From positions 1 through 64,000 of the IMG/VR virus record IMGVR_UViG_3300020391_000005: a stretch of DNA of 64,000 bases; one strand, given 5' to 3'. The DNA comes from a virus. A program made the position numbers and the translations under genes. The notes under the pieces are model-generated. The model was not told the DNA's origin. It did not search any database and saw nothing but the letters and a program-made list of their open reading frames with translations. Of this stretch, positions 1-17,007 are shown in pieces (position 1 is the first letter of the stretch; each line of letters begins with the position of its first letter).

Positions 1-24
1 AAAATGAAAGAGAAGTCTTTATAA
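1..24 (+). CDS. 3' end of an upstream gene (partial)
   Basis: The first bases read in frame as a short C-terminal tail (KMKEKSL) ending in TAA at 22-24. The stop overlaps the ATG of the next gene as TAATG, a junction used repeatedly in this genome. Only seven codons are visible, so no function can be given. It could also be non-coding sequence. Confidence 0.4.
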   Translation, partial: KMKEKSL

Positions 25-311
25 TGTGGGAAGTATTTTGTATTCTTAGTTTTTTGATAAATATATTTTTAGCACTTTATATTAGATGGTTACTGAAATA
101 CGTGGCATCAAATGCTGAGGATGTAAAAAGTTTGTCTATTATGATTGCTAGCTTTTCAGATCATATATCGAAAATATATGAATTAGAGATGTTCTATGGA
201 GATGAAACTTTAAAATCTTTAATGCAGCATGCCAAAGAAGTAATAGAGTCTATAGAGGAAATGGATTTAATAATAGAAAATGATGAAACAGACACAGAAA
301 AAATTGTTTAA
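24..311 (+). CDS. small single-pass membrane protein, unknown function
   Basis: This 95-residue protein has one hydrophobic segment at about residues 3-24, followed by a charged helical region with the motif YELEMFYGDETL near residues 52-63 and an acidic C-terminus. The shape suggests an inner-membrane anchor with a cytoplasmic helical tail. I recall similar small proteins next to the late sigma gene in marine T4-like phages, but no function is known to me. Its start overlaps the previous stop (TAATG), and its last 32 bases overlap the gp55-like gene in another frame, so the two are probably translated together. A link to transcription would be inference from position only. Confidence 0.75.
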   Translation: MWEVFCILSFLINIFLALYIRWLLKYVASNAEDVKSLSIMIASFSDHISKIYELEMFYGDETLKSLMQHAKEVIESIEEMDLIIENDETDTEKIV

Positions 312-1005
312 AAAACCTAGAAAAAAAAGAACAAAAAACAATTACTTTACAAAAGTTCATGAGGAAGCGATTGTTAAATATGCTAATACTTCCTGTATTA
401 AGGAAAGAACAGAATTGTATTCATCATTAATACAACCGGCATTTAATGAAATGGTTAATAAAATTATTTTCACATATAAATTTAATAATCTTCCCAATAT
501 TGACCCACTCAGAGAAGATTGTAAAATTTGGCTTACAACAATTTTAGATAAATATGATCCGAATAAAGGATCAAAAGCGTTTTCTTATTTTTCTGTTGTT
601 ACAAAAAACTGGTTTATACATAAAACGAAAAAGAATACAAAAAGAATGAAGAAAGAAGTTTCTTATGAAACTCTTGTTGAAAGTGGAGGCCCAGATATAT
701 TGGGAACATCAGATGATCACAGCTTATCATATACTTCACAAAGAGAAGAGATGGAATTTTGGAACTCGCTGCTAACTCAAGTAGATCGTTGGGATACAGG
801 AAATTTAAAAAATAATGAAAAGGCAGTCCTAGATGCTGTTAGAATTTTGCTTCACAATATAGAAGATATAGAAATATTTAATAAAAAAGCTGTATATCTA
901 TATTTAAGAGAGTTGACCGGACTTAACACCAAACAAGTTGTTAATAATTTGAACAAAATAAGAGAAAAATATAGAACTTTTAAATACAAATGGGATAGAG
1001 AATAA
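280..1005 (+). CDS. 55: late-transcription sigma factor, T4 gp55-like
   Basis: The 241-residue protein resembles the divergent sigma factor gp55 of T4-type phages, which replaces host sigma70 so that RNA polymerase recognises short late promoters. The best evidence is the block KYDPNKGSKAFSYF at residues 91-104, followed by a basic helix (WFIHKTKKNTKRMKK) matching the conserved core of marine gp55 proteins. The N-terminus is strongly basic (KKLFKKPRKKRTK). It is longer than T4 gp55 (185 residues), with an extra C-terminal helical region. ATG 280 is followed by another ATG at 283 and either may be used. The gene overlaps the preceding membrane-protein gene by 32 bases. The expected partners, a gp33-type coactivator and a gp45 clamp, are not obvious here. 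Confidence 0.85.
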   Translation: MMKQTQKKLFKKPRKKRTKNNYFTKVHEEAIVKYANTSCIKERTELYSSLIQPAFNEMVNKIIFTYKFNNLPNIDPLREDCKIWLTTILDKYDPNKGSKAFSYFSVVTKNWFIHKTKKNTKRMKKEVSYETLVESGGPDILGTSDDHSLSYTSQREEMEFWNSLLTQVDRWDTGNLKNNEKAVLDAVRILLHNIEDIEIFNKKAVYLYLRELTGLNTKQVVNNLNKIREKYRTFKYKWDRE

Positions 1006-1021
1006 ATAAAAAATATTTATT
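1001..1021. repeat. AT-only inverted repeat after gp55
   Basis: AATAAATA (1001-1008) and TATTTATT (1014-1021) are perfect inverted copies around a five-A loop. It overlaps the gp55-like stop codon and sits just before the next gene. With no GC pairs it is unlikely to terminate transcription. It could be a protein-binding site or a chance product of AT richness. Confidence 0.35.
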
Positions 1022-1022
1022 T

Positions 1023-1033
1023 CTATTTATTAT
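1023..1033 (+). promoter_or_regulatory. recurrent intergenic motif CTATTTATTAT, copy 1
   Basis: Exact copies of this 11-mer lie at 1023, 36482 and 57324, each before or between genes. This copy touches the ATG of the next gene, so if it is a promoter element the transcript would be leaderless or begin further downstream. The reverse complement contains AATAAATA, close to the T4 late box, so the working strand is uncertain. Confidence 0.35.
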
Positions 1034-1336
1034 ATGAGTAAAAAACTAAATGATTTTATTGAAAAAGCCACAAATAATATAATTGATGATAGAGCAGCAA
1101 CACAAGCTTTGCTTGTTACTCTTATGAAATATATGCAAGTTTCTGAAGATAGACACAAAGAGGTTGGATTAGTTGCTGCAAAATATCTTGAAACTTTACA
1201 AAGATCAAATGAACAATTAGTAAAGCTAGCAGCTTTGGTGCAAAAAAATCAAACATCTAATCAGGGAATTACAGAAGAAGACAAAAAAGACTTATTTGAT
1301 TTAATTAGTTCTGATCCTGGAGACACGAATGGTTAA
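1034..1336 (+). CDS. conserved 100-aa phage protein, unknown function
   Basis: This small, mostly helical, soluble protein has no membrane segment. Residues 1-75 look like a continuous amphipathic helical region (for example RHKEVGLVAAKYLETLQRSNEQ), and the acidic C-terminus contains DLFDLISSD. A hydrophobic-acidic tail of this kind resembles the clamp- or polymerase-binding ends of T4 gp33 and gp55, and the gene directly follows the gp55-like gene, so a role in late transcription is possible but only inferred. There is no clear Shine-Dalgarno before ATG 1034. The gene overlaps the next one by eight bases. Confidence 0.7.
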   Translation: MSKKLNDFIEKATNNIIDDRAATQALLVTLMKYMQVSEDRHKEVGLVAAKYLETLQRSNEQLVKLAALVQKNQTSNQGITEEDKKDLFDLISSDPGDTNG

Positions 1337-2135
1337 ATATGTAGACAAAGATATAGATCAACTAGCTTTTGGTACACCTGGTAACTCTCCGGTGCAAACA
1401 CCAGCTGATTCCATGTCGGCAACTGACTTTTTTGATCAAGTTTTAGCAAGTCAGAAACATACTGAAAAAGAAATAAACAAAAAACATAAAGAATATAAAT
1501 TTCCTGGCTTAGTGCTAGATGCAACTAAAATAACAGCAGAGGATCTTCGACTTAGAACTTCACAAGATTTTTATAATTATATATCTAGAGGTAATAATTT
1601 AGAAGAGGGTGTCATAGAGTACAGAGTTCACATAAAAGAGTTAACCAGTTATCTACCAGTTCCTACTTTAACAGATTTAAATTTATATCATACTAGAGGT
1701 ACGGGAGCCGAACAATTAACAGAACAAGAAATATCTGATGCAAAAAAATATGGCGTTTCCCTTACTGAACAGCCAGCAGATGATCAAACTGCAAGAAGGA
1801 TAAAAAGATTTCCATGTTTTTACAAAAGTGTTAAGGATGGCGGCAAGGTAGACTTCATGTTCACTTGCAAGGTTAAATTTTTAGATCAAAATAGAATGTT
1901 TTATGGTGTAATGGAATCTATAGATAAACAAATAGAGATACTATCTATAGGTAAAGAATTAGTTGATAGTATAAATCGATCAGCCGCAGCCGAGAAGAGG
2001 AATGAGATATCTAGGGCAAAACGTCTAGCAACTAGGACTCCGGAACAAATAAAGAAAGATGAAGAGGCCGCCGCGGAGTTGCGAAAACTATTAAATCAAG
2101 TTCCTAGTCTACCAAGTACAGAGGGAAATAATTAA
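1329..2135 (+). CDS. putative baseplate-hub-associated protein
   Basis: The protein has 268 residues. The middle part, about 50-210, is beta-rich (VIEYRVHIKELTSYLPVPTL; VDFMFTCKVKFLDQNRMFYG) and resembles a small OB-like barrel of the type found in baseplate hub proteins. The C-terminal 60 residues form a charged helix rich in Arg, Lys, Glu and Ala. The first 45 residues look disordered. It overlaps the preceding gene and is followed after three bases by the spike-like gene, so the three are probably co-translated. The hub assignment rests on position upstream of gp25 and gp6 and on fold impression. No catalytic motif is seen. Confidence 0.5.
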   Translation: MVKYVDKDIDQLAFGTPGNSPVQTPADSMSATDFFDQVLASQKHTEKEINKKHKEYKFPGLVLDATKITAEDLRLRTSQDFYNYISRGNNLEEGVIEYRVHIKELTSYLPVPTLTDLNLYHTRGTGAEQLTEQEISDAKKYGVSLTEQPADDQTARRIKRFPCFYKSVKDGGKVDFMFTCKVKFLDQNRMFYGVMESIDKQIEILSIGKELVDSINRSAAAEKRNEISRAKRLATRTPEQIKKDEEAAAELRKLLNQVPSLPSTEGNN

Positions 2136-2138
2136 ACA

Positions 2139-3383
2139 ATGTCACACAATGATTATAACTGGGGGAATCCAATCTCAGCGGATGGCGATGAAGATGGCAC
2201 CGACGCGGGTAGCTCTGAGCAAAACCAAGAACAAAACCAACAACAAAACCAAGAACAAAACCAAGAACAAAACCAAGAACAGGAAGAATTCCAGGAACCT
2301 AACCCTCCTCCTTTAAGAGACTTTGTTAAAATAGAATCCGGCAAATCTCATGTATTTTGGCCACCCTTTGAGACAGGGCAAAATGGGGAAAATGAATCTG
2401 CTTTAAGTGAACCAATACCTGAATATTTTGCTCGCACTGGAGATTGTATTATAAATGCTGGAACCATGAAGCAAGGTGTAGATAATAATACCATGATTAT
2501 ATTGGGTCGCGACAGAACAGGTATTGGAGAAAAAGACACAATATTAACAGATAAAAATTCAAAATCAGGATACTCTAATTATATGGGAGCCGGACAAATT
2601 GACCTTGTTGCTGGGAGAATGGCTCCATTCCCTGTAGAACTACCAGGTTACTCATTAGGGCCTCTATATCTTACGCACCATAATATACCAGAGCTTAAAA
2701 TGCAAGCATTAACAGGCAAAAATCCTACTGATTTTATAACATTTCATCCAGGCTATGCGATGGATGCATCTAGAATACTAATAAGTCAAATGACTAATAT
2801 TGACGAAAATTTTGCCATAGATCGTAATCCAGACGGCCGCAGACCTTACGGGTATGCTCGACGCGGGAAAGACCCCGCTGCTTCAGCTATAATGCTAAAA
2901 TCAGATAAAATTCGCTTTCATTCTCGGCAAGACATAAAAATTGTAACCGGTGGCAATTTAGAAGATATTAATTCACAAGGAAACGAAATATTGAGAGTGG
3001 GTGGGGTTCACTTAATGGCCAATAATTGTAGTTATCCAGCCGGCAGAACTCAACCAATTCCAAAAGGTGGAAATCTTTTAGAAGCAATGAATAAAATGAT
3101 GGACCAGATGTATGAAATTTGTGACATACTGTTTAAATTTATGGAAATAGAACAAAAATTTGCAAAAGTTGTAAAAGATCATGTCCATATATCGCCTGTC
3201 AATGGCAAGCCAACTTCATTTTCTCCGACCGTTGCACCAGGTGCATCTGTGGCCATAAATCAAATTCGAGCAGCTGGAAAGAGAATAGAAGTTGCAGAAA
3301 AAAGAATGAAAAATTTTCAAAATCAATATTTAAGAGCAGGTGGCAATTTTTATGTAAATAGCTACTATAACACAACGAATTAG
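2139..3383 (+). CDS. putative baseplate spike or hub protein (gp5-like position)
   Basis: The protein has 414 residues. Residues 25-50 are a low-complexity Asn-Gln-Glu tract. The central region is rich in glycine and short beta strands, and around residues 247-275 (LKSDKIRFHSRQDIKIVTGG) it resembles the strand-turn repeats of VgrG/gp5-type spikes. Residues 305-400 are helical with a heptad-like tail. In T4 the spike gp5 carries a lysozyme domain; I see no lysozyme motif here, so if this is the spike it lacks that domain. The gene lies between another hub-like gene and a giant baseplate-region gene. Structural protein is likely; the exact role is an inference. Confidence 0.5.
   Translation: MSHNDYNWGNPISADGDEDGTDAGSSEQNQEQNQQQNQEQNQEQNQEQEEFQEPNPPPLRDFVKIESGKSHVFWPPFETGQNGENESALSEPIPEYFARTGDCIINAGTMKQGVDNNTMIILGRDRTGIGEKDTILTDKNSKSGYSNYMGAGQIDLVAGRMAPFPVELPGYSLGPLYLTHHNIPELKMQALTGKNPTDFITFHPGYAMDASRILISQMTNIDENFAIDRNPDGRRPYGYARRGKDPAASAIMLKSDKIRFHSRQDIKIVTGGNLEDINSQGNEILRVGGVHLMANNCSYPAGRTQPIPKGGNLLEAMNKMMDQMYEICDILFKFMEIEQKFAKVVKDHVHISPVNGKPTSFSPTVAPGASVAINQIRAAGKRIEVAEKRMKNFQNQYLRAGGNFYVNSYYNTTN
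2220..2279 (+). repeat. 12-bp tandem repeat (CAAAACCAAGAA) x5
   Basis: Five adjoining copies of CAAAACCAAGAA, the second with one changed base (CAAAACCAACAA), encode an Asn-Gln-Glu/Gln tract in the N-terminus of the spike-like protein. The unit is four codons long, so gain or loss of copies would keep the frame. Confidence 0.9.
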
Positions 3384-3396
3384 GTGATAAATAAAT

Positions 3397-6300
3397 ATGC
3401 CAACCATTGCAGATAAAATATTTCTTATTACTCATCAAAATGAGCAAATAACTTTTTTTCCTAGATTTATGCAGCAAAAAGGAAGAGATATCTTATGTGT
3501 AAAAATCGCTCTTGGCCAAGTTATTTCACCGCCCGCAGAGAATAGATCACCTTCAGATTCTACAGTTGGAACACAGTGGTTTGATTGTGATTCGGGTAAA
3601 GAACTAACTATAGATAGTGGAGTAACATTTGACAAAAAATTAAAAAGATATTTAATGTCATATCAGTTACAAAATCAATTTTTAATTTTAAGTTATTATT
3701 TTGAAAAATATTCTGTAGAAAAGCTAAAAACAAAAGAAGATCTTTTAAAGCAAGTGTATGCTTGTATAGCGTTTTTTGATAATGAATTTGGTAATATTAA
3801 TGAGGCAACACTAGCAGTTTTACATGGCTGGCGTCCTGATTCTGTATTTTCTAATAAGTCATACTCTAGCGATGAGGATAATCCTGTTGATCAAGTATCT
3901 GGTTTTTTGTGGCAACTTTGCAAAGACGGAACTATATCTTTTCCAGATGATGCATTAGTAGAAGAAACAATCGAAAAAACACCTGAGCAATTAAATTTGT
4001 GGGAACAAACAAAACGTGATTTTTCAACAAGAAAACAATCATATAGAAATTGGGCTTTAAATATAGAGAGCGAGTATCCAGAAGTATATATTAAGTACAA
4101 AAAAGCAGATGAAGAAAGTTTATTATTTTCAGCATCTAAAAATGTTGCTGAAGCTGCAATAGAAATGCAACAAGATGAAATGACACCACAACAAAAGGTA
4201 GATTTAGCATCCAGAGCTTTTGAACCTAATATGGCTATAGATCCAGATCCCTTTGATATTAATAGTAAAAAAATAGGATATTTTTTAAGAACAGAATATA
4301 CTTTTATAAATTTACCACTTTTTTCTGGAGACGATGATTTCAGAGAACAAACTAAAACTTTAACTGATAGTGCTCTATCTGAAGTGTTAAAATTTTATAA
4401 TAAACCAGTTATATGGGGGTCTTCATTTGAGGATCCAAAAAACGTAAGATTGTATTTTGACAATACAGACTCTATGAATCTTGCCAGTTCTAGTCCAAGA
4501 GTAACTACAAATACGTTTATAGACGAAATGCAGATAAATGAAGATCAATATGATTCTTTATATCAAGATTATGATTCATTAATGAACGAACCTTTAATAA
4601 CTTTTGTAGAATTTAGGAGCCCATCGCTAAGACCTGGTGACGTATACCGAGCATATTTTGAAATAAATAAAGAAAAATTTGATATTATTACGACAGAGTC
4701 TTTTGAAAATAATCAGCAAACTGATTTTTTTATTCCTGATTCTAAAAAAATATTACAAGATTTTAGTGATGAATTAAATACTGTATACTGCGCAGATGAT
4801 GCTCCTTTAACAGAAGAACAAGCTAGGAATCAATATGCTAGATATAGAGCATTTGCATCAAAAAAGAAACTTGAAATATCTCGTCAAATTAGAGCGGCTT
4901 ATATGAAAGCCATTGAGAATGGCCAAGATATAGATGATGTAGAGGTTGATTTAGGTGTTTTTGGTAAAATTAATTTATCAGACGAAGAAATAATCAACAC
5001 AACACTAAATGCCACATTTCTAGGTTTATCAGAAGGTGTAGGGGCACTGCTAAATACTGATTCATTATCGGAAGTAAAGGGTTTAATTCAAGATGATGTG
5101 TCAAATGAGTTAACTTTAACTTTTGAAGAGTTAGAAATAGGATGTAAGGAAATAGCAGAAAATTTAGCAAATGCAGAGCCGGATTTGAAAAATTTTGATA
5201 TTAGAAATCAAAATGGACAAAAATATAATGCAACTGGTGAAGGCAATAAAGTAAAGTCTATACCAAGTATAATTATTATAATGGCTCGTAGGAATGCTGG
5301 TCTAAGGTCAAGTGTAAGAGATAATGACGGGTTTGATGATGTTGAATCTTATTTAAGAGGACCACCCGGACAGTTATTTAAAGGTCCATCACAAAGAACT
5401 AATATAGAATTTAAATTTTTAATAAATAATCAGGGTGATACTGAAATAGAGCATATTAAAGTTTATAATAAAGAATATTCAGAGATAGGAACACATTATA
5501 TATTTAGACAAGGCACCGGAGGGACTCAATTATTATCATCCTTAACAGATTCTAGATCAGTAGAGTATTTGAGAAATATTTATGGTATGACATCTTTAGC
5601 AGATGGTGTTGGGTCTTATATAGGACAAATATTTGATTTGTCAGGTCCGGGCTGTGGCCCTGCAGGTTCACAATTAGGCTTAGGCATGGCTTACGTTAAA
5701 AAATTTACAAAAGATATACAAATTGCGCAAAGTTTTAATTCTTATGTTCCATTGCACCATTGGAAAGAAAATGTTATAAATCAAGCACCTATTAAATCAC
5801 TTGAAAAAACAACAGATGAAATTGGCAGTTATTTTCAGAGACAATTTTCAAAAGAAGCCATTGATACTAATTTGCTTGAAATGACCGGACTTGCCGACGC
5901 AGTACCCTTGATAGGCCCAGATTGCAGTAGAGAATCAATATATCATGATGTGGCTCAAACATTTCAACTTAAAAAACTTATATGTAACTATGCAGCTTGT
6001 TTAAAACTGCCAGATTTTGAATTTAAAACACCAAACTTGAACTGGCCAGATATAGGAGAAATACCAATATTTAAAATTAATTTTGGACTCGATCAGCTAG
6101 ATGACTTTTTACAACAAGTTCTTACTAGAGCAATATGCGCTTTCATAAATGGATTATTGGATATACTTAAAACTCCATTTTGTCAAGAGCAACTCGCTCC
6201 AGCGCTGTATGGAGCTGGATCTGACACTAGCCCAATAATACAAAGAGCACTAGTTGATGGCATTTTAGATATTGGTATTCCAATCGGAAAAATGGAGAAT

Positions 6301-9300
6301 GCAAAGTCTCTTGTAGACAAGCTGTTAAACTTGCTAACTCCAAGAGAAATTTGTGCCCTATTGGAAGGCAAGACCTTAAATGATGAAGTTATATTTTTGA
6401 TATATCGCATAGCCGAACAAGAAAATTTATCAATAGAAATATCCAGCCCTGAATCAGTTATAGAATTTTTTACAACTTTGGGACAGTTTATTGATGAAGA
6501 AGTCTGTGAGCAGCTTAATAAATTTGATGAAACACTAGGAACGTATACTTGTACGTCAGTATCCGATATGCTGAGTGAGATCAGGAAATCAATTATAAAA
6601 GGCAAAGAGGTTAGTGCAGAGCAAATTAATGAAGCTGTTAAACTTGCAAATGATAACTTAATGGACAAAACAAAGGCTTTACAATCTTTAGGGAATGGTG
6701 GATCTTTAGCGGATTTAATACCTGAATTATACGATTTGGATTCTATTGTAAACCAAAACTCTATTCCAGTCACTGCTATGGAAAAGTTAGCAGCTTCATC
6801 CGCGTTTGAAACGGCCCGTTTGAATTTTTTAAATTCAATGAATTCTTTTGTAGACTCGATGTATCTTGAATCACCCAGGGTAGCAGAATATAATGACCCT
6901 GGGTACGACCCAGAGGCAACAAGGATAGTTCAACGCGCTACGGCTAATTTACAAAGATTATCTCATTTTGCAGGTACAAGTTTAGAATCTGTTTTCTCAA
7001 CTATTAGAGAACAAAGCACAACTAATTATTTGAGAAGAACTTTACTTTACTGCTCAGATGATTATAAAACTCAAACTGTCCAGAATTTTTTAGGTGAAGA
7101 TATACAAATTTATACACCTCTACAAATAGAAGATGAAAATCAAGCAGGCGCAACTCCAGACGATCAAAAGGCATATCTATCTGGATCATTAGTTCGTTTA
7201 AATGATATTTTAGCTCAAGCTCCGGACAATGATGAAAATATTTCTGATGTAGTAAATAAACTTGAAAATAGAAGAGTTTTAGAAACTGTGTTTCCTATTG
7301 TTGTTGGAAGTTTTCCAAACCCTGAAGATCTTGTTGGTGAGTCTACCCCACCAGAAAATATTACAACATATAGAGACTTTCTTCGAGATGTATTTATAAA
7401 CCCAGAACCGGACGCTCAAGCTCAAACTGATAACATAGAGCACCTAAATAGAGCGTATGTTGCAAAAATTGTAAGTTTAATAGATATATACAAAAGGCAA
7501 ATAGAGAGCAATATTGACAAAGCTTATAGAATAATATCAGAGCCTGATTTTTTAAAAATATTAAAAGATTTTTATGATACTTCTAAAGAAGTTATTAGAT
7601 TACAAAATAATCAAGAAATAATAAAAGTTACAACAGAGGGAAATACATTAGTAACAAAATTATCAGAACCTTCAGATACGTATCAGACTTCAATAACAAT
7701 GATTGATAAACCAACAGTAGGGGGCTTGGAATATGAAATAACTGTTGATGATGAATTTTTCTTTGGTGGAAACAAAAAGTTTGTAGGCTGCGACACTCTA
7801 CCCGAGCAATACAGTGATTTATTTGATAGTTCGGAAGATATAGTTAATCCAAGAGCAAAATCTTACAGGATATCTATATTGAAAAATTTACAAGATTTGT
7901 ATTCAAAGTATAAACTATCAGGCATGCCTCAGTATTCTCAAATTTTACAAGAGTACCCCTCTATTGAAAATGACTTAGAAAAATTATCCTTTTCCAATAC
8001 TTATGAGGGATCTCTAGAACAGTTAATAAATCTTGTTGGAGACTCAAAACTATTTAGTGATTCTCAATTTGTTAATAGGATGGATGCAAAGCTTCAAAGC
8101 AAATCTTATTACGATCCGCTATCTCTCTGTGTTAAGAATCCAAGAGGTTTACCCTCTTTTGGAATACTCAATTTTGAAAATATCGTTTTTGATATATTTG
8201 AGGAAGAAAGTAAAAAAGAGTCTCTACTTCCGATAAATTCTATTTTATTGCAAGATCCACTAAAACCGGGAGCATATGAAAAAGCTATACAAAATACAGC
8301 TGTTAGGGGATTCGTTAGAATATGTTTGCTAGAAATGGTTATGAAAGGTGCAGTTTCATACTCTGCTTGGGATATAGAGTATATAAAAAATGATAATTTT
8401 TTTAAAGAATATGTATATAGATTTATAAAAAATCAGTTAGAAAATCAAAATCTTTTTTCAAATAATTTACCGGACTTGCACAGATGCCTTGAAAGAATAA
8501 CAGGTAAGAAAAATATTGAAGCCTCATTAAGACAAATAGTGTTAGAAGAATCAGATTTTGTTTTTAAGTATTCAAAAACTTTATATGAAAATAATAAAAA
8601 TATTGATTATAGAATGTGGTTCTTAGAACAATTAGAACATGTTGAAGTTCCATCTAGCAAAGTCCTTGACACTAGCTTATCAAAAAATGTGTGGATAAGT
8701 AATCTTGAAAAATCAGTCCTTCAACAATCAGAAAATAATTTTGTATTTCTAGAAAGGTATATCAGAATATTCGGAGCTTTAAGAGGATCTGGCGCAGACG
8801 CGTCTGGTATTGCTCAAGCTCAATATCAATCTTTTTTGCAAAATTTAGATTCACTAAACACAGCTGTTGACAAAACTGGCTTTAATAGGCTTGGTTTAGA
8901 ATCTTACAATATATCCGACTCTTCTTCTGTTACGATAAGTGAATATGTAGACGATGATGATTTTCCAGACAAAGAATTATTATCAATTTCAGATCTTACA
9001 AAAGTTATCAATTCTCTTTTTGACAATAATTCTGAAATAAATAGGTATTTTCATGACTTAACCAGAAGGATTTATAACCCTGGAAACATACTACATTCAC
9101 TTCCAAGAGCTATAAGTAGACTGCCTGCAAAACTTATAATTAGAAAAAGAAATAGATATGTTTTTTCAACAAATAATGCTTTTAGCGCTCATTTAAGAAA
9201 TGATCCAGATCTAGCTCCATTTACTCAGCGACGATTTGAATCTAATATATACCAGGATCAAGTTGAACCACAACGTTCAGATGGTGAGATTGATCCTTCA

Positions 9301-12300
9301 GTTGGCGGCGCAGCAGGTTTAGGCGCTGAAAAAGCTCAAGCAGATGAAAGGTTCTCGGACGAAGATAGATATTATGTTATTCCAATAGATGGAGCACAGG
9401 GTCTTCCTGAAGCAGAATCCATAAAAGCCGGGGGCCAGTTTTTTACTAACAACCCCAATGAGGATGTAGAAAATTTTGGGTTTGAACCTTCTGCTGCTTT
9501 TTCTGGAAATGAACCTGGACTGATTATGAAAGATGTGGTTTTAGAAGGAGAGAGAAAAAGACCTTTAGATCCGACAGCCAGCTGGCTAAATGTATCAGAT
9601 ACAACTAGCGAACGACCACCCGAAGATGTTATTTTTAAAAGAGTCCCTGTGCCCAGAAATCCAAATTTTACTACCATTCGAAAAGTTTTTGATAATATAT
9701 ACGGACAAGTAAATCAAGAGCAGTTTAATAATATAAGTAATACTAATCAAATTGCAGAAGAGATTTGGGAAGAGTCTGTTATAGACCTTGTAGGTGACGC
9801 AGCTCCAATATTTAATTTTCCTGGTGATTCTAAATTTATTCCTAATGATCACATGTCTACATCAGATAAAAGTAACCTGGGGTATTATCTCGAAACCGCA
9901 AGTAGATATTATAAATCTGGTACCGGTCGCAACCGAGGCGCATGCAACTTTTATAACAGTGAGGACCGTCAAAAAATATTTGAACAAACAAGCTTTGACT
10001 CAGGTAACGTATTTACAGTTCAGGGAGAAGTTGATAGCGAGTACGGCGCGCCATCACCGAATGCAGTAATATCTAGACCCATGGGATTAGAAGACCACCC
10101 TGGGGGTGCAAATGATTTAACTTTTGCCAGTAACAATGTTAGTCTGGGTGCAGTTCCAGGGAGCCCAGATGCTAATTGGAGGGTAAAAGGTGAGCATGAA
10201 TTATTAGGTAGAAATGATTACAAAGTTCCGATTAGAATTTTAATAACACAAATAAAAGAAGCATCAACAGGAAGAATAATGCAGGTTTTTGTAAAATATG
10301 TTATACCTGAATTAATGGATTTTGCAGATACTTCTTTAAATCCTGATCGAGCACGCGCGCTAAAAGATGCTGCTGTAGAATGCTTGCAGGCTTTTAAAAC
10401 ATTTATCGAGAATGGATTCAACGATCTTAAGAACGACCCCGGCAGAAATGGTCAAATTCTTCGCGACGATGGCCACATAGCTAATGCGGAAGACACTACG
10501 CCCGCAGCAGATTTAGGCATGCGCGTAAAAGCTAATGAATCATCTAAACATTTTTGCGTTTATTTAGCCATGGGTAACGACCGTGTTAAAGTTCCTGTTC
10601 TTTTTAGGCAGAAAGGTGCACCAAATTTTGGCGCTTCAAGTGCTCCATCTTTTTGTTCAATATCAAAATTTTATAGCATTGCGGCTCTTAATGAAGCAAA
10701 AGACCAAAAAGGAAATTTTAAGATAGATCAAGCTTCAATTGACAATCACTTTGCAGATCCAGGAAAACTTTTGAGAAATTCAGACTATGATATTAATTCC
10801 TCATATTCAGTTCTTGATGAAGGTAGAGCAGCATTTACACAACACAGTTTTTATGCAGATTCAGTTCGTAACATAATTAAAGTGTCTGGTGTTGATTTTG
10901 ATTCGCAATCTGTTGATGATAATTATGATCCAAAACGTACCCTTGTAAGTATTGGGAACCTAGTAAGTTGGTTTTCTCAAAAAAGAAACGACGCATTTTG
11001 GGGTAGAACGCACAAAACGCAACCTGATAGTCAAGCCATTTTTACTAGGTGTGGACCAAGTCTTTTTTACGGCGATGGCCGCGGCTCAATAAAACAGTTT
11101 TTCGTAGCGGGAAAAGAAGCAATACTTAATTCCATGAGAGACACACCAGCCGATGCTAATATAGCACTAATTGATCATATTCAAAACTTGTACAATCAAG
11201 ATGAAGTTGACAATAAAACGCTGGCCACTAGACTGACGACTGCGATTGCAGATCAAAAACAGGCATTACAATTTTATAGAACATTATTTGAAACTCCAGC
11301 CGGAGAAAGAACCGAAGTAAACAATTCAAATTTTGCTACTCTCGCTCAGGATCCTACATTTGGAAATTTTGATGTTACTCAATTTGGATATGGCAGCGAC
11401 CCTCCAAGAATCAATTATAGCATGGGTCATTTTCTTAACGGTGATGACACCAATTTGATTAGAGTATTTCAGGGTGGTAACTCTAGTGTTAAAAGTATAA
11501 CTTATGAAACTTTACAAAATTTAAACTTTTATAAGATTCATAATTCTGCTAATACTGAAAAATATATGAATACTGCTATGAACATGAGAGCTAGGTACAA
11601 TGCTGGTCTAGAAGAAACTGAAATATTAAATTTTATGGAGCAGATATTAACTTCTTTTTTCATTCAAAATGAAGATGGTGAAAGTGTTATTAAAAATATT
11701 ATTCAGGAGTCAAGCATTAAAATAGGGTTAAGAGCAGTTTTGGCGACTAATGGAGACAATGGAAACCTTGAGTCATTTGTTACAAAGACGTTTAATGAAA
11801 CTTCACAAGTATCTGAAGAAGAGCGAACGGGTCTGGTAAAGATAGGAGAAGATAATGCTTATGAAAACTTACATTGTATTCCAATTGCATCTTTTGAAGC
11901 AGATCTTTTATACCCCTCGTGTTTTAATATTGATAATTTGTCAGGATTAACTGAAGTGGTGGATTCTTTCAAACCGCAACTGATGCAAGGTTTATTGGAT
12001 TCAGATCAATATAAGCAATTTTTTGATTTTTCGATTCCTCAAAAAAGACAAGCATCTGTAATTTCTTTGCATAGTACTTCTTTATTAGCAGGTTATAGTA
12101 CTATGCCTGATGTATTATCTTCTGTTAAGGATTCTTTAGCAGGCACATTTTATTTAGCCTTTCAGACAGACACCACATCTAGCTCCGAACTTAGTTTTGA
12201 TTTATCATCAGCTGATCTTTTAGCAGTAACGGATCAATTTATGACCTCTGATGGTCTTAGAATTGATTGTATGAACTTTCCTGGACTAGGCGATTGGATG

Positions 12301-12900
12301 AAATTGCTCTCTGAAATCATTAAGAAATTTGTTAAACAGTTTCCTTCAATAGTTTTGAGAGGTATAGCAAATGAAATTGATCCTGCTTATAAAGAAATGC
12401 GTCGACACTATCTAGCATGCGAAATAGAAGATTTAAGATTTAAGGGGTTGCATTACACTGGTGGCGAAGGCAAAAATCCTCTCGGACTTAGAGGTGGTAC
12501 AGTTGGCGAGAAGAAGTACATACCTTTGAACGTTGGTTTGCCATACGATATAACCGTTGGTGGCTACAGAGCTATATTTGAAGGGAATCCTAGATTATTG
12601 GCAGCTAGTATTTCTAAGCTTGTAGGTTATATATTTGGCGGCCCATTAGCATTGCTAGACCCAAGTTATGCATTTAGGGTTCCGTGTAAAGATGTAGATA
12701 TTTCTGGTGAAGGTATTTTTAACTGGGAAAAATTTACTATTGGTAATATGGGTAGATATGGTCATCCATTAACTCCAATCACTTTGCTGGCATTGTCAAC
12801 AAAACAACTTCCAGGAGACATAGATCAAAAGAATGCATTCTGTATGGATAGAGAGACTATGTTTAACCCACAATTGTTCTGTTTCGAAACTGAAGAATAG
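3397..12900 (+). CDS. giant structural protein (3167 aa), baseplate region, unknown
   Basis: This single open frame of 9.5 kb lies between the spike-like gene and gp25. I do not recognise the protein. It looks globular and multidomain rather than coiled-coil: there are Asp/Glu-rich linkers, a cysteine- and helix-rich part near residues 820-1080 (for example LICNYAACLKLPDFEF, IICALLEGK-like helices), beta-rich parts further on, and a glycine-rich C-terminal part near residues 3020-3130 (LRGGTVGEKKYIPLNVGLPY). There is no signal peptide, no clear membrane segment and no nuclease or lysozyme motif. A tape-measure role is possible by length, but the lack of long regular helices argues against it. 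ATG 3397 follows GTGATAAATAAAT, with only a weak ribosome-binding site. Confidence 0.8.
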   Translation: MPTIADKIFLITHQNEQITFFPRFMQQKGRDILCVKIALGQVISPPAENRSPSDSTVGTQWFDCDSGKELTIDSGVTFDKKLKRYLMSYQLQNQFLILSYYFEKYSVEKLKTKEDLLKQVYACIAFFDNEFGNINEATLAVLHGWRPDSVFSNKSYSSDEDNPVDQVSGFLWQLCKDGTISFPDDALVEETIEKTPEQLNLWEQTKRDFSTRKQSYRNWALNIESEYPEVYIKYKKADEESLLFSASKNVAEAAIEMQQDEMTPQQKVDLASRAFEPNMAIDPDPFDINSKKIGYFLRTEYTFINLPLFSGDDDFREQTKTLTDSALSEVLKFYNKPVIWGSSFEDPKNVRLYFDNTDSMNLASSSPRVTTNTFIDEMQINEDQYDSLYQDYDSLMNEPLITFVEFRSPSLRPGDVYRAYFEINKEKFDIITTESFENNQQTDFFIPDSKKILQDFSDELNTVYCADDAPLTEEQARNQYARYRAFASKKKLEISRQIRAAYMKAIENGQDIDDVEVDLGVFGKINLSDEEIINTTLNATFLGLSEGVGALLNTDSLSEVKGLIQDDVSNELTLTFEELEIGCKEIAENLANAEPDLKNFDIRNQNGQKYNATGEGNKVKSIPSIIIIMARRNAGLRSSVRDNDGFDDVESYLRGPPGQLFKGPSQRTNIEFKFLINNQGDTEIEHIKVYNKEYSEIGTHYIFRQGTGGTQLLSSLTDSRSVEYLRNIYGMTSLADGVGSYIGQIFDLSGPGCGPAGSQLGLGMAYVKKFTKDIQIAQSFNSYVPLHHWKENVINQAPIKSLEKTTDEIGSYFQRQFSKEAIDTNLLEMTGLADAVPLIGPDCSRESIYHDVAQTFQLKKLICNYAACLKLPDFEFKTPNLNWPDIGEIPIFKINFGLDQLDDFLQQVLTRAICAFINGLLDILKTPFCQEQLAPALYGAGSDTSPIIQRALVDGILDIGIPIGKMENAKSLVDKLLNLLTPREICALLEGKTLNDEVIFLIYRIAEQENLSIEISSPESVIEFFTTLGQFIDEEVCEQLNKFDETLGTYTCTSVSDMLSEIRKSIIKGKEVSAEQINEAVKLANDNLMDKTKALQSLGNGGSLADLIPELYDLDSIVNQNSIPVTAMEKLAASSAFETARLNFLNSMNSFVDSMYLESPRVAEYNDPGYDPEATRIVQRATANLQRLSHFAGTSLESVFSTIREQSTTNYLRRTLLYCSDDYKTQTVQNFLGEDIQIYTPLQIEDENQAGATPDDQKAYLSGSLVRLNDILAQAPDNDENISDVVNKLENRRVLETVFPIVVGSFPNPEDLVGESTPPENITTYRDFLRDVFINPEPDAQAQTDNIEHLNRAYVAKIVSLIDIYKRQIESNIDKAYRIISEPDFLKILKDFYDTSKEVIRLQNNQEIIKVTTEGNTLVTKLSEPSDTYQTSITMIDKPTVGGLEYEITVDDEFFFGGNKKFVGCDTLPEQYSDLFDSSEDIVNPRAKSYRISILKNLQDLYSKYKLSGMPQYSQILQEYPSIENDLEKLSFSNTYEGSLEQLINLVGDSKLFSDSQFVNRMDAKLQSKSYYDPLSLCVKNPRGLPSFGILNFENIVFDIFEEESKKESLLPINSILLQDPLKPGAYEKAIQNTAVRGFVRICLLEMVMKGAVSYSAWDIEYIKNDNFFKEYVYRFIKNQLENQNLFSNNLPDLHRCLERITGKKNIEASLRQIVLEESDFVFKYSKTLYENNKNIDYRMWFLEQLEHVEVPSSKVLDTSLSKNVWISNLEKSVLQQSENNFVFLERYIRIFGALRGSGADASGIAQAQYQSFLQNLDSLNTAVDKTGFNRLGLESYNISDSSSVTISEYVDDDDFPDKELLSISDLTKVINSLFDNNSEINRYFHDLTRRIYNPGNILHSLPRAISRLPAKLIIRKRNRYVFSTNNAFSAHLRNDPDLAPFTQRRFESNIYQDQVEPQRSDGEIDPSVGGAAGLGAEKAQADERFSDEDRYYVIPIDGAQGLPEAESIKAGGQFFTNNPNEDVENFGFEPSAAFSGNEPGLIMKDVVLEGERKRPLDPTASWLNVSDTTSERPPEDVIFKRVPVPRNPNFTTIRKVFDNIYGQVNQEQFNNISNTNQIAEEIWEESVIDLVGDAAPIFNFPGDSKFIPNDHMSTSDKSNLGYYLETASRYYKSGTGRNRGACNFYNSEDRQKIFEQTSFDSGNVFTVQGEVDSEYGAPSPNAVISRPMGLEDHPGGANDLTFASNNVSLGAVPGSPDANWRVKGEHELLGRNDYKVPIRILITQIKEASTGRIMQVFVKYVIPELMDFADTSLNPDRARALKDAAVECLQAFKTFIENGFNDLKNDPGRNGQILRDDGHIANAEDTTPAADLGMRVKANESSKHFCVYLAMGNDRVKVPVLFRQKGAPNFGASSAPSFCSISKFYSIAALNEAKDQKGNFKIDQASIDNHFADPGKLLRNSDYDINSSYSVLDEGRAAFTQHSFYADSVRNIIKVSGVDFDSQSVDDNYDPKRTLVSIGNLVSWFSQKRNDAFWGRTHKTQPDSQAIFTRCGPSLFYGDGRGSIKQFFVAGKEAILNSMRDTPADANIALIDHIQNLYNQDEVDNKTLATRLTTAIADQKQALQFYRTLFETPAGERTEVNNSNFATLAQDPTFGNFDVTQFGYGSDPPRINYSMGHFLNGDDTNLIRVFQGGNSSVKSITYETLQNLNFYKIHNSANTEKYMNTAMNMRARYNAGLEETEILNFMEQILTSFFIQNEDGESVIKNIIQESSIKIGLRAVLATNGDNGNLESFVTKTFNETSQVSEEERTGLVKIGEDNAYENLHCIPIASFEADLLYPSCFNIDNLSGLTEVVDSFKPQLMQGLLDSDQYKQFFDFSIPQKRQASVISLHSTSLLAGYSTMPDVLSSVKDSLAGTFYLAFQTDTTSSSELSFDLSSADLLAVTDQFMTSDGLRIDCMNFPGLGDWMKLLSEIIKKFVKQFPSIVLRGIANEIDPAYKEMRRHYLACEIEDLRFKGLHYTGGEGKNPLGLRGGTVGEKKYIPLNVGLPYDITVGGYRAIFEGNPRLLAASISKLVGYIFGGPLALLDPSYAFRVPCKDVDISGEGIFNWEKFTIGNMGRYGHPLTPITLLALSTKQLPGDIDQKNAFCMDRETMFNPQLFCFETEE

Positions 12901-12931
12901 ATACTACTTAGTAAGAGGAGAGAAGACAACA

Positions 12932-13327
12932 GTGTTTCAGCCAAAGTTCCCATTACAAATTTCAGATTTAGATGGTGCTTATAAATCTATTAAAGATATA
13001 AAAGAAAATATTAAACAAAATGTATTATTTTTATTATCAACCGCGCCTGGCGAATGGCCTGGGAATCCTGAAATTGGAGTAGGGGTAAGAAGGTTCCTAT
13101 TTGAAAACTATCCATCTCCAGAACTTCTTGATTTACATAAAAAAATAAAAGATCAATTTTCTACTTTTTTGCCATTCTTAGATGTACGAAGCGAATTTAT
13201 AGAGAAAGATGGTTATGGTAGAAATTTAATTGAATCAGGAGAACTAAAATTAGTCGTTAAATATAATATTAAACCTTTAGGAGTTGCAGACTCAGTTACT
13301 ATGGGTATATCTGAAGATACTATGTAG
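12932..13327 (+). CDS. 25: baseplate wedge protein, T4 gp25-like
   Basis: gp25 is the small wedge protein that nucleates sheath assembly on the baseplate and is related to lysozyme-like T6SS TssE. The diagnostic segment LFLLSTAPGEWPGNPEIGVG at residues 32-51, with NPE-G followed by RRFLFE, matches the gp25/GPW family core. I chose the GTG at 12932 because a strong AAGAGGAG lies just upstream at 12914-12921 and because it gives 131 residues, essentially the length of T4 gp25 (132). An earlier in-frame ATG at 12833 would overlap the giant gene by 68 bases and add 33 unrelated residues. gp6 follows 51 bases downstream, the usual gp25-gp6 order. Confidence 0.9.
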   Translation: MFQPKFPLQISDLDGAYKSIKDIKENIKQNVLFLLSTAPGEWPGNPEIGVGVRRFLFENYPSPELLDLHKKIKDQFSTFLPFLDVRSEFIEKDGYGRNLIESGELKLVVKYNIKPLGVADSVTMGISEDTM

Positions 13328-13378
13328 AAGATATATTTTACTTAGCACTAATTATTAATGAAAAAGAGGATAATATAA

Positions 13379-15178
13379 ATGTCAAAAAAAATAGTTCCGG
13401 TAGACTACACCAGCGCCGACTTTGAAAAAATAAAAAAAGATCTTTTAAATTACGCAAAAAGATATTATCCAGAAACATATAAAGATTTTAACGAAGTATC
13501 TTTTGGTTCTCTGATGACAGACCTTGTATCTTATGTTGGAGACAATCTTTCTTTTTACCTGGACTATCAAGCTAACGAATCTTTTATAAATACAAGTTTA
13601 GAATATGATAATGTTTTAGCACATGCAAGACAGCTTGGATACAAACATAGTCCTGTTAGAAGTTCAGTGGGAGAAGTAGACGTATATATTCCTGTCCCGG
13701 CAGACAATGCAAATGTCGCCCCAGATTTACAATACTTGCCCAAAATGTTAAAAGGAACCCTTTTTACTACTGTAAGTGGAAACACATTTACACTAAATAA
13801 AGATATTGAATTTTTTTCAAATAGTGTCGAGGTCGTCGGCAGTGAAGTATCTTCGGATGGCTCAAAAACAACCTACTATATACTTAGGGCGAGAGGAGAG
13901 GTGGTATCTGGTCAAGACAAGCAAGCTGTCGTAGAGGTTGGAGATTTTAAGAGATTTTTGAAGTTACCAGTACCCGGAGCAGAAGTTTCAGAAATAATCT
14001 CAGTTGTTGACTCTAACGGAAATGAATATTACGAGGTTGATTATTTAAGCCAAAATACAGTTTATAGATCGGTAGTTAATAGAAATGAGTCATTACCAGA
14101 CAGTTCTGCACCATCAGTTATGAAGCCGTTCCCGGTACCAAGAAGATTTGTTGTGGAGAGAAATGGTCTGGATATGCATCTTGTTTTTGGATATGGCTCA
14201 GAAGCAGAATTAAAAGACAACAAAGTTGCAGATCCTAGTGAAGTAGTTATGCAAATAACAGGTAAAAATTACATTTCTGATGCGACATTTGATCCATCAA
14301 AACTTTTATCAACAGATAAGTTTGGAGTCGCTCCAACAAATACAGATCTAGTTATAACTTATAGAACAAATAATTCAAGCAATGTAAATGCAGCTGCTGG
14401 AACTTTAAATGCAGTTATAGATCCCTTAATAGAATTTAGAAATATACAGAATTTAGATACCGCAAAAATTAATTTTATTTTATCGAATATACAAATCTTC
14501 AATGAGGATCCAATAAATGGCGACATTTCAGTACCAACAACAGAAGAAATAAAAAGAAGAGCAAATGCTGCATTTGCAATGCAGGGTAGAGCAGTAACAT
14601 TACAGGACTATGTTTCTGCAACATATGCAATGCCTGCATCTTTCGGTGCAGTTAAGAGAGCAGCTATTTATAGAGATACTGACGATCTTAGAAGAAATTT
14701 AAATATGTATGTAATCTCAGAAAATTCAGAACAAAAACTTGAAAAATCAAGTACTGTTCTTAAAAATAATCTTAAAACTTGGCTAAATTCAGTTAGGATG
14801 ATAAATGATAGTTTAGACATATTAGACGCAACTATAATTAATCTTGGAGTTGAATTTGACGTGATTGCTCAAAAAGATATAAATAAGAACAATGTTTTCA
14901 ATATAGCGAAAGAATCAATTTTTAAAGAACTAAATGAAATAAAGCCAGAAATTGGTGAGCCATTTCAGATTACAGAAGTATTTAGAATATTGAAAGACGT
15001 TCAAGAAGTTTTAGATGTAGTAAACATAAAGATAACCTCAAAAACAGGATCTCAATATTCAACATTTATGTATGACATAGAATCTAATATATCACCAGAG
15101 GGTCGAACTATTTACATACCACACAACTGTATATGGGAAATAAAATTTAAAAGTGATATAGTAGGGAGTGTAAGATAA
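13379..15178 (+). CDS. 6: baseplate wedge protein, T4 gp6-like (baseplate J family)
   Basis: gp6 forms the iris-like ring of wedge dimers that holds the baseplate together. The 599-residue protein starts with the family signature: DYTSADFEKIKKDLLNYA at residues 9-26 and SFGSLMTDLVSYVGDNLSFY at 41-60. The baseplate-J core near residues 385-430 contains EEIKRRANAAFAMQGRAVT and YVSATYAMP. T4 gp6 is 660 residues, so length agrees. ATG 13379 is preceded by AAGAGGATAATATAA, giving a usable ribosome-binding site. The stop overlaps the next start (TAATG), which ties the following DNRLRE-like gene to the wedge module. Confidence 0.92.
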   Translation: MSKKIVPVDYTSADFEKIKKDLLNYAKRYYPETYKDFNEVSFGSLMTDLVSYVGDNLSFYLDYQANESFINTSLEYDNVLAHARQLGYKHSPVRSSVGEVDVYIPVPADNANVAPDLQYLPKMLKGTLFTTVSGNTFTLNKDIEFFSNSVEVVGSEVSSDGSKTTYYILRARGEVVSGQDKQAVVEVGDFKRFLKLPVPGAEVSEIISVVDSNGNEYYEVDYLSQNTVYRSVVNRNESLPDSSAPSVMKPFPVPRRFVVERNGLDMHLVFGYGSEAELKDNKVADPSEVVMQITGKNYISDATFDPSKLLSTDKFGVAPTNTDLVITYRTNNSSNVNAAAGTLNAVIDPLIEFRNIQNLDTAKINFILSNIQIFNEDPINGDISVPTTEEIKRRANAAFAMQGRAVTLQDYVSATYAMPASFGAVKRAAIYRDTDDLRRNLNMYVISENSEQKLEKSSTVLKNNLKTWLNSVRMINDSLDILDATIINLGVEFDVIAQKDINKNNVFNIAKESIFKELNEIKPEIGEPFQITEVFRILKDVQEVLDVVNIKITSKTGSQYSTFMYDIESNISPEGRTIYIPHNCIWEIKFKSDIVGSVR

Positions 15179-17007
15179 TGTCAATAAAAAGATATACATC
15201 TATAAAAGATAATACTATTTCATCTGCGTTTAAACTAAACCTATCAAGCCGCGGCACTGATGCAAATATGGGAGCCTCTGATATTTTAGAAATGTATTCT
15301 ATATTTGCACAAGCTAGTTCATCTTCAATAGAGCAATCAAGAATTTTAGTTGAATTTCCTTTAGCTACAATATCATCTCAAAGAGACTCAGGTATAATAC
15401 CTACTTCTGGATCTGTAACTTTTAAACTAAAAATGTTTAATGCTGAACACAATCAAACTACTCCAAGTGATGTTACTGTTGAAACAAGAATATTGACGCA
15501 AAAATGGTCAGAGGGCTCTGGTTTAGACATGGAAAGTTTTTTAGACTCTGGTGCAAGTAGTTGGACATCTGCATCAACTGGCAACGCGTGGTTTACAACA
15601 GGAGGTGATTTTTTATCATCTAGCTATATAGCTTCATCACCAGTCCCGTTATCGTACACTCAATTTTTAAGTGAGGGTACAGAAAACTTAGATATAGACG
15701 TAACCCCAATTGTAGAAGAGTATATTAAAAACGTGAAAAGCACAGGAACAAATGCAACTGGTTCAATAGTGTTTAATACTACACATGCACCATCAGTTGG
15801 CCAATCTTTTAAAATATATACATATCAGGGTGATCACAGAATATTTCAGTTTTCTAATACTTCAGGATCTTCCGGTAAGACGGTGTTTGTCTTAACAGGA
15901 TCTTCTGCCTCTGGATCATCTAGTAATCTTATAGATGCTATTAATACAAATTTGGGGTCCTTTATTGCAGCTACTGGTCAAGACAATGATTTAACAGCTA
16001 GCTTATCTCAAAGGGCGGCAACTTTTTATGGAAATACTATAATATCATCATCCGTTGCCTCAGCAACAGCGTCAGTAACAAACTTTACAGGCGGCTCAGG
16101 CGCGATAAACTATGGCTTTATCTTAAAGCTTAGCGGATCACAAGAAGATGGATCGGCATCTAGATCTTATTATACAAAAAAGTTTTTCGCCAGATCTAGC
16201 CATCATCAACTTGAGAGACCAGTGTTGGAAGCACAGTGGGATTCATCTGTAAAAGATGATAGAGCTGATGTAATAAAATCTAGTAGTCTTGCACCAGCTA
16301 GTGATAATCTTAATAACATATATTTATATAACAGAATAAGAAATAAGTTAGTGGATATTCCTAACACTGGGTCCTTGTTGTTAACAAGATTATTAGCATC
16401 AACAAAAACTGGACTGCCCGTTACAGCATCAGGGCCTAGCGCATCTGGAACTTTTATTACCGCAAGTAAAAATTCAACAGGTATCTACAAAGCTCAATTT
16501 GCTTATAACGGATCAGAAACTACTTTGTATGATGTTTGGCAAGCTTCATCTTCCTCTGGCATAACCACTTTGTTTACAGGATCTGCGATTACTGTCTCAG
16601 CAAAAACGCCAGAATCTTTTTATCAAATACCAACATATTTGACAAAAATAACAAATTTAAAATCATCTTATGCAGCTAATGAACAAGCTACTTTTAGGGT
16701 ATTCACTAGAGACAAAAATAAAAAACCAAATATTTATACGGTTGCAAGTAACCAAGCTCAAGTAACAACCATAAGAGAAGGATATTATAAAATATGCAGA
16801 GTGGCAGATGATATGACAATAATAGATTATTCCACAAGTAGTGTACCTAGTTATTCCTCTTTATCTTATGATGCAAGTGGTTCTTACTTCGATTTAGACA
16901 TGTCAATTTTGGAACCAAACTATTTATATGAGATACGTCTTTTATATAAAGATGAGAATGATTATATAGAGCAGAAAGAAAAGTTTAAGTTCCGGGTTGA
17001 TCCATGA
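15178..17007 (+). CDS. baseplate-associated protein with DNRLRE-like domain
   Basis: The 609-residue protein is Ser-, Thr- and Gly-rich. The first 190 residues follow the pattern of DNRLRE-type beta-sandwich domains: a strand with RILVEFPLATI, then VTFKLKMFNAEH, a KWSEGSGLDMES segment, a WTSAS...W..GGDF turn and LDIDVTPIVEEYI. Such domains are found in extracellular and carbohydrate-binding proteins. The rest is beta-rich with SGS repeats, and ends in YEIRLLYKDENDYIEQKEKF. It occupies the place where T4 has gp7 and gp8, but I see no similarity to them. It is joined by overlapping codons to gp6 before (TAATG) and the 4217-aa giant after (ATGA). A baseplate or fibre-attachment role is inferred. 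Confidence 0.7.
   Translation: MSIKRYTSIKDNTISSAFKLNLSSRGTDANMGASDILEMYSIFAQASSSSIEQSRILVEFPLATISSQRDSGIIPTSGSVTFKLKMFNAEHNQTTPSDVTVETRILTQKWSEGSGLDMESFLDSGASSWTSASTGNAWFTTGGDFLSSSYIASSPVPLSYTQFLSEGTENLDIDVTPIVEEYIKNVKSTGTNATGSIVFNTTHAPSVGQSFKIYTYQGDHRIFQFSNTSGSSGKTVFVLTGSSASGSSSNLIDAINTNLGSFIAATGQDNDLTASLSQRAATFYGNTIISSSVASATASVTNFTGGSGAINYGFILKLSGSQEDGSASRSYYTKKFFARSSHHQLERPVLEAQWDSSVKDDRADVIKSSSLAPASDNLNNIYLYNRIRNKLVDIPNTGSLLLTRLLASTKTGLPVTASGPSASGTFITASKNSTGIYKAQFAYNGSETTLYDVWQASSSSGITTLFTGSAITVSAKTPESFYQIPTYLTKITNLKSSYAANEQATFRVFTRDKNKKPNIYTVASNQAQVTTIREGYYKICRVADDMTIIDYSTSSVPSYSSLSYDASGSYFDLDMSILEPNYLYEIRLLYKDENDYIEQKEKFKFRVDP

Follow-up and report, generated by a model that had tools for sequence, protein, structure and literature searches.

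A giant protein of no known family, encoded between the spike and gp25 genes, in a large clade of uncultured T4-related phages

The described systems closest to the locus analyzed here are the hub and wedges of the T4 baseplate (gp5, gp25, gp6, and gp53), the VrlC protein of pelagimyophages and cyanomyophages, which is said to be a baseplate protein replacing T4 gp7 (PMC7029224), and the tail of Agrobacterium phage Milano, in which a disulfide network across the tail and baseplate wedges prevents tail contraction (PMC10811340). The very large protein described below, hereafter the giant, is encoded in the T4-like hub and wedge neighborhood, on the run from a spike-like protein to gp25 and gp6, and genes for the remainder of a T4-type tail are likewise present. 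It differs from the components of the T4-type baseplate in that Kyanoviridae and sister lineages encode nothing comparable at this place, no sequence match was found, and models of a relative lack a fold match in the PDB. It resembles VrlC in being a large, lineage-specific protein of the baseplate module of marine T4-like phages, if its presumed place in the baseplate is correct, whereas VrlC is encoded well downstream of gp6. The likeness to Milano is confined to cysteines in a contractile-tail setting; it provides a precedent for a possible function and implies no homology. The Milano network links sheath, tube, and several baseplate proteins, whereas here the framework lies in the giant only, is recognized from cysteine conservation and co-occurrence, and is flanked by cysteine-poor structural proteins. 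The T4-type contractile tail is a known machine, and the giant is a new part of it that falls under no known family.

The window, by which we mean the whole stretch of 64,000 nucleotides that was analyzed, is part of the 84,832-base record IMGVR_UViG_3300020391_000005. This record encodes a T4-type set of head and expression proteins (late sigma factor, terminase, portal, prohead protease, and major head protein) and of tail proteins (sheath, tube, T4_baseplate-family protein, tape measure, gp53-like LysM protein, gp25, and gp6). The features around the giant are as follows.

2139-3383, plus strand: spike-like protein upstream of the giant, assigned by position and by homology within the virus group
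3382-3387, plus strand: probable ribosome-binding site of the giant, AGGTGA
3397-12900, plus strand: giant protein, 3167 aa
5914-6921, plus strand: family-wide helical cysteine core of the giant, residues 840-1175, with near-invariant C843, C929, and C1052
7861-8526, plus strand: conserved segment in the middle of the giant, residues 1489-1710, with a match in the L009 group of relatives (hhalign probability 72%)
11974-12831, plus strand: Gly-enriched C-terminal conserved region, residues 2860-3145, with the motifs FPS.VLRGIA..IDPAYKEM and GRYGHP.TP
12932-13327, plus strand: gp25-like wedge protein, 131 aa from GTG 12932
13379-15178, plus strand: gp6-like baseplate wedge protein, 599 aa (phrog_219, E 9e-20)
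15178-17007, plus strand: conserved protein of 609 aa in the same cluster
17004-29657, plus strand: protein of 4217 aa downstream of gp6, homologous to sister-phage proteins of ~1.3 kaa

The spike-like protein has no known-family match of its own, and gp25 is recognized by phrog_261 (E 4e-9) and by PF04965 at an E-value of 5e-4, below Pfam's cut-off. The gp25 ORF as listed (12833-13327, 164 aa from ATG 12833) overlaps the end of the giant; a ribosome-binding site at 12914-12922 followed by GTG 12932 gives a 131-aa protein that begins past the giant's stop codon, and 131 aa is also the length of gp25 in relatives, so that GTG 12932, not ATG 12833, is probably the true start. The 4217-aa protein is unrelated to the giant and common to sister phages; its homologs in these phages and in relatives range from about 1100 to over 2800 aa. 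A tRNA search of the 64,000-nt window and an Rfam search of its positions 1-14000 returned nothing. Elsewhere in the record, we observed a 943-aa Ser/Gly-rich protein of near-identical repeated modules directly 5' of the sheath gene (62368-64000, continuing to 65199 of the record), a single 1032-aa ORF at 42024-45122 that matches SbcD-like (residues 1-350) and SbcC-like (276-1028) families and whose T4 counterpart is two genes, gp47 and gp46, and, beyond the window at 79981-81814 of the record (locus L086), two minus-strand paralogs starting MS.MKKIMENWR.F in an otherwise plus-strand record.

The giant ORF is real. It is intact from its ATG, which AGGTGA precedes by 9 nt, and its frame contains no internal stops, against 261 and 395 in the two alternative frames; 3167 stop-free codons have a log10 probability of -113 by chance. 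Codon-position GC (46/36/21%) is similar to that of the adjoining gp6 gene, homologs back the reading frame at the protein level, and DNA repeats within the gene amount to short, chance-like pairs. A sequence-only reading of this DNA had placed a 3167-residue ORF at 3397-12900, and both coordinates and length stand exactly. The predicted product has a mass of 357 kDa and a pI of 4.7, contains some amphipathic helices in its core and C-terminal part, and yielded no membrane-like segment when one was sought. The same reading had pointed to a cysteine-bearing helical part (about 820-1080) and a glycine-rich end, and both are borne out: residues 843-1052 hold eight cysteines, several of them near-invariant across the family, and the C-terminal ~200 residues carry 12-15 Gly per 100 aa, where the mean is 5.8.

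Searches of the giant against Pfam, PHROGs, NCBIfam, and PDB sequences gave no significant match (E <= 0.001 for Pfam, NCBIfam, and PDB sequences), in keeping with its earlier description as a protein of unknown family. Megablast and tblastn with the window protein, taken in two pieces, found no matches among 50,697 phage records, nor did tblastn with members of the family from L060, L026, L057, L027, L017, and L078 against the same records; a nine-member alignment of a relative subfamily gave only weak, scattered matches to known families. PHROG, Pfam, and PDB sequence searches linked the giant to neither the T4-type hub (gp27/gp5) nor the wedge (gp6/gp7/gp25/gp53), and no lysozyme, peptidase, or toxin domain was found with Pfam, NCBIfam, and PDB sequences, which agrees with the absence of lysozyme and peptidase motifs noted from the sequence. 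A clear profile match to tape-measure, hub, or enzyme families was searched for, and none was found. The collections searched contained no cultured member of the family, and a literature search over an incomplete paper collection found no description of it. By these comparisons, the giant is a member of a large family without prior description.

To recover relatives, we searched IMG/VR with the gp6 neighbor, which yielded 157 relatives; the 80 best were retained (L005-L084), and nearly all of those that extend far enough upstream show a giant ORF flanked by a spike-like gene and gp25. A scan with the single giant sequence found no matches, its patterns being too specific. Alignments of giants then served as queries for two more scans, which brought in additional loci, among them 32 from the window's own subfamily and the nearest neighbors of that subfamily; the first of these scans recovered at least 320 relatives of the L060 subfamily. 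Collectively, hundreds of uncultured, mostly marine T4-related viruses carry the giant between the spike and baseplate genes. In every relative, its gene is part of the baseplate gene cluster: among 167 informative gp25/gp6 loci, it lies directly 5' of gp25 as one ORF in 165 (118 closed giants of at least 1500 aa and 47 of at least 1000 aa that run off the contig), and as two ORFs in the remaining two, with eight more loci, outside the 167, too short to score its presence. The giant always adjoins the spike-like gene, and the order gp25-gp6 is kept. In the two exceptions, the giant keeps its position but is split into two ORFs with a 4-base overlap, which also provides a useful domain boundary:

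L082, 3397-9626: split giant, two ORFs of 1333 and 743 aa
L083, 3340-9626: split giant, two ORFs of 1337 and 758 aa

The core profile (residues 840-1175) matches 116 of 116 full-length members checked, from 1333 (split pair) to 3606 aa, a count that includes near-duplicate loci and members partly gathered with the same sequences and is therefore not independent proof of universality, for which the gp6-based set (L005-L084) is the cleaner sample. The C-terminal profile matches 93 of the 116. On this comparative evidence, the giant characterizes a large uncultured clade and is no peculiarity of a single phage. A genome scan for a host recovered only virus-group contigs inside MAGs labeled Actinomycetes, Maricaulis, and Flavobacteriales (L213, L214, and L215); because these labels disagree, the contigs are probably binned virus DNA, and we assign no host.

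The gp6 proteins of Mel-JY01, immuto, and LR756508, outside this clade, align over 94-99% to the window gp6, and these genomes have no giant before gp25; the same holds for the MAG contigs L216, L217, and L219-L221, and, by annotation, for the Kyanoviridae Mosig and P-RSM6. Cyanophage P-RSM6 has, directly after gp6, a gene of about 25.7 kb annotated as hypothetical (L212; HQ634193.1 103907-129628). Profiles of the giant family matched nothing in complete sister and Kyanoviridae genomes, with sensitivity limited in that the second profile had no positive control and also missed a known far member of the family (G014); the comparison with VrlC, made through the Mosig and P-RSM6 genomes, gave no match to these profiles within the same limit. 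Sister-phage proteins between spike and gp25, profile-tested as possible fragments of the giant, gave no match. In a gp6 tree of 49 rows, all giant-bearing rows fall on one side of one branch (support 91/62), and presence and absence of the giant amount to a single change in 90% of bootstrap trees. A single gain is therefore the simplest account, and the gene was probably acquired in one event, at its place between the spike gene and gp25.

The size of the giant within a tail gene cluster, together with the partly helical character of the model of its relative L060, could recall a tape measure. This identification was rejected, as the sequence-only reading had already proposed. A separate 554-aa tape-measure homolog (record 69827-71491; phrog_167, E 1.3e-8) lies ~57 kb from the giant in the sheath/tube cassette, after the sheath, tube, and T4_baseplate-family protein, and the giant itself has no tape-measure profile match. 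Homologs of the 554-aa protein occur on the contigs of 14 of 36 relatives, mostly the longest contigs. Among 14 viruses, the tape measure spans 537-951 aa and the giant 1997-3669 aa, and the comparison of lengths suggested earlier showed no positive scaling: the longer the tape measure, the shorter the giant (rho -0.87, n=14, kinship uncorrected, with some giant lengths being lower bounds and most tape-measure lengths being stop-to-stop). With the compact alpha/beta model of L060 also standing against it, the tape-measure reading is already contradicted, and we regard it as virtually untenable.

Structure prediction and fold search, likewise proposed in that reading, were carried out on the relative L060 (2182 aa), not on the window protein, using AlphaFold2 with 72-row alignments; L060 was chosen because its subfamily is the deepest. 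Residues 1-1150 were modeled with a pLDDT of 74.6 and a pTM of 0.72, and residues 1000-2182 (1183 residues) with a pLDDT of 85.5 and a pTM of 0.88, the latter forming one well-ordered alpha/beta body that is neither a repeat fiber nor a long coiled coil. Foldseek searches with both halves found no match in the PDB (best E 0.41 and 0.31). In BFVD, the first half matched A0A516M7H3, A0A516MAR9, A0A1B1IUZ9, and A0A1B1IUR6 (E 1.6e-16 to 9.9e-6, probability 1.00), with poor global superposition (TM 0.16-0.41); by these model matches, the four viral proteins probably belong to the same family as the giant. The window protein is linked to L060 by profiles over residues 875-1153 (L060 721-1043, probability 98%) and 570-939 (L060 170-538, probability 94%), and more weakly over residues 2763-2893 (probability 46%), while no such link covers the other ~40% of it, mostly residues 1200-1480 and 1720-2760.

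The sequence-only reading had offered a new baseplate shell or an ejected protein. Of these, a baseplate part is the best reading, because the gene keeps its place between spike and gp25 and because the C-terminal half of L060 folds in one piece; this reading also draws on the fact that sheath, tube, T4_baseplate-family protein, tape measure, and LysM/gp53-like protein all have their own genes. Ejection found no support. In that scenario the giant would pass into or across the host envelope at infection, as cargo or as a pore at the spike, and its gene does adjoin the spike gene and some helices of the protein, in the core and the C-terminal part, are amphipathic; against this, it is a 357-kDa protein with no membrane segment and no enzyme or toxin domain found, the folded half of L060 is large and compact, and the tail tube must already contain the 554-aa tape measure. 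We consider ejection highly improbable. We return to a baseplate part and hold it somewhat probable, on balance, that the giant is a lineage-specific structural component at the interface of spike and wedges, where gene order suggests it would sit, acting as a shell or clamp that was gained once and is stapled by cysteines. No family or fold match in PHROGs, Pfam, or the PDB links the giant to any baseplate component, and linkage to baseplate genes also fits a fiber platform, an assembly scaffold, or an exported factor.

The strongest of these rivals is a receptor-binding fiber platform at the baseplate rim, a fast-evolving host-recognition protein instead of a hub/wedge clamp, and it is the strongest because the giant evolves fast. 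At the same own-subfamily loci, identity is 27-35% for the giant and 44-65% for gp6, so that the giant evolves much faster, and family members measure anywhere between 1565 and more than 3600 aa. For marine T4-like phages, the literature discusses double-layered baseplates as well as baseplate proteins that are large and lineage-specific (PMC7029224). However, the giant matched no carbohydrate-binding, collagen-like, or beta-helix family, it retains large conserved cores and, in L060, a one-piece folded half, and it lies between spike and gp25, whereas the remaining large tail genes are found after gp6. Taken together, we judge a fiber platform unlikely, and the ejected protein and the assembly scaffold less likely still.

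The sequence-only reading had named the cysteines, and it was the family comparison that showed them to be, by alignment, the most conserved residues of the giant. In the window's own subfamily, 29 cysteines fall in well-filled columns, and 18 of them (62%) reach at least 90% conservation; for residues of all kinds, the figure is 130 of 2844 (4.6%; p = 5e-18). The L060 subfamily conserves 17 of 22 and 5 of 6, and neither gp6 nor the 4217-aa protein has such cysteine conservation. Among diverse cores, Cys occupies the C1052 position in all 112, the C929 position in 104 of 109, and the C843 position in 75 of 79. C986 and C1037 are both Cys in 26 of 112 cores, both non-Cys in 84, and differ in 2, and C863/C868 co-vary in the same way, a co-occurrence that partly reflects shared ancestry and does not measure bonding. 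This pattern suggests disulfides or metal sites, with metal sites or buried thiols as the alternatives to disulfides. The giant has 32 cysteines in 3167 residues, compared with 27 in 9568 residues of ten other structural proteins of the same genome; these proteins being cysteine-poor, disulfides, if present, would mostly connect cysteines of the giant itself. Disulfides form poorly in the cytoplasm, where tails assemble.

The framework also bears on whether the giant could be a baseplate assembly scaffold or chaperone that is not kept in the virion. Such a role would explain the strict linkage to baseplate genes without a match to solved baseplate structures, but an invariant cysteine framework would be more typical of a stable particle component, and known tail chaperones are far smaller than 1600-3600 aa; we regard a scaffold as improbable. 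Under the favored shell or clamp reading, the giant would be a virion structural protein of the baseplate in one large, mostly marine clade of T4-related phages, building a shell or clamp where the central hub/spike meets the wedges (gp25, gp6, and gp53), which would keep the pre-contraction baseplate together, with the conserved cysteines stapling its domains through metal sites or through disulfides formed after release. We infer its presence in the virion, baseplate location, copy number, shell or clamp role, and mechanism, and the oxidation or metal state of its cysteines. A bolder form, which we advance only tentatively, is that the giant has a new fold and was added once to a T4-type tail, in a widespread uncultured group, as a cysteine-stapled shell locking hub to wedges until host contact.

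Few injection machines are as well studied as T4-type tails, whose baseplate core is conserved widely. An entire clade is seen here to carry an additional giant part. If the giant resides in the baseplate, the injection machinery of common ocean viruses would include a large component that is still unexplained, and the cysteine framework of the giant may offer a direct and cheap handle, through redox or metal state, on how such a baseplate stays closed.
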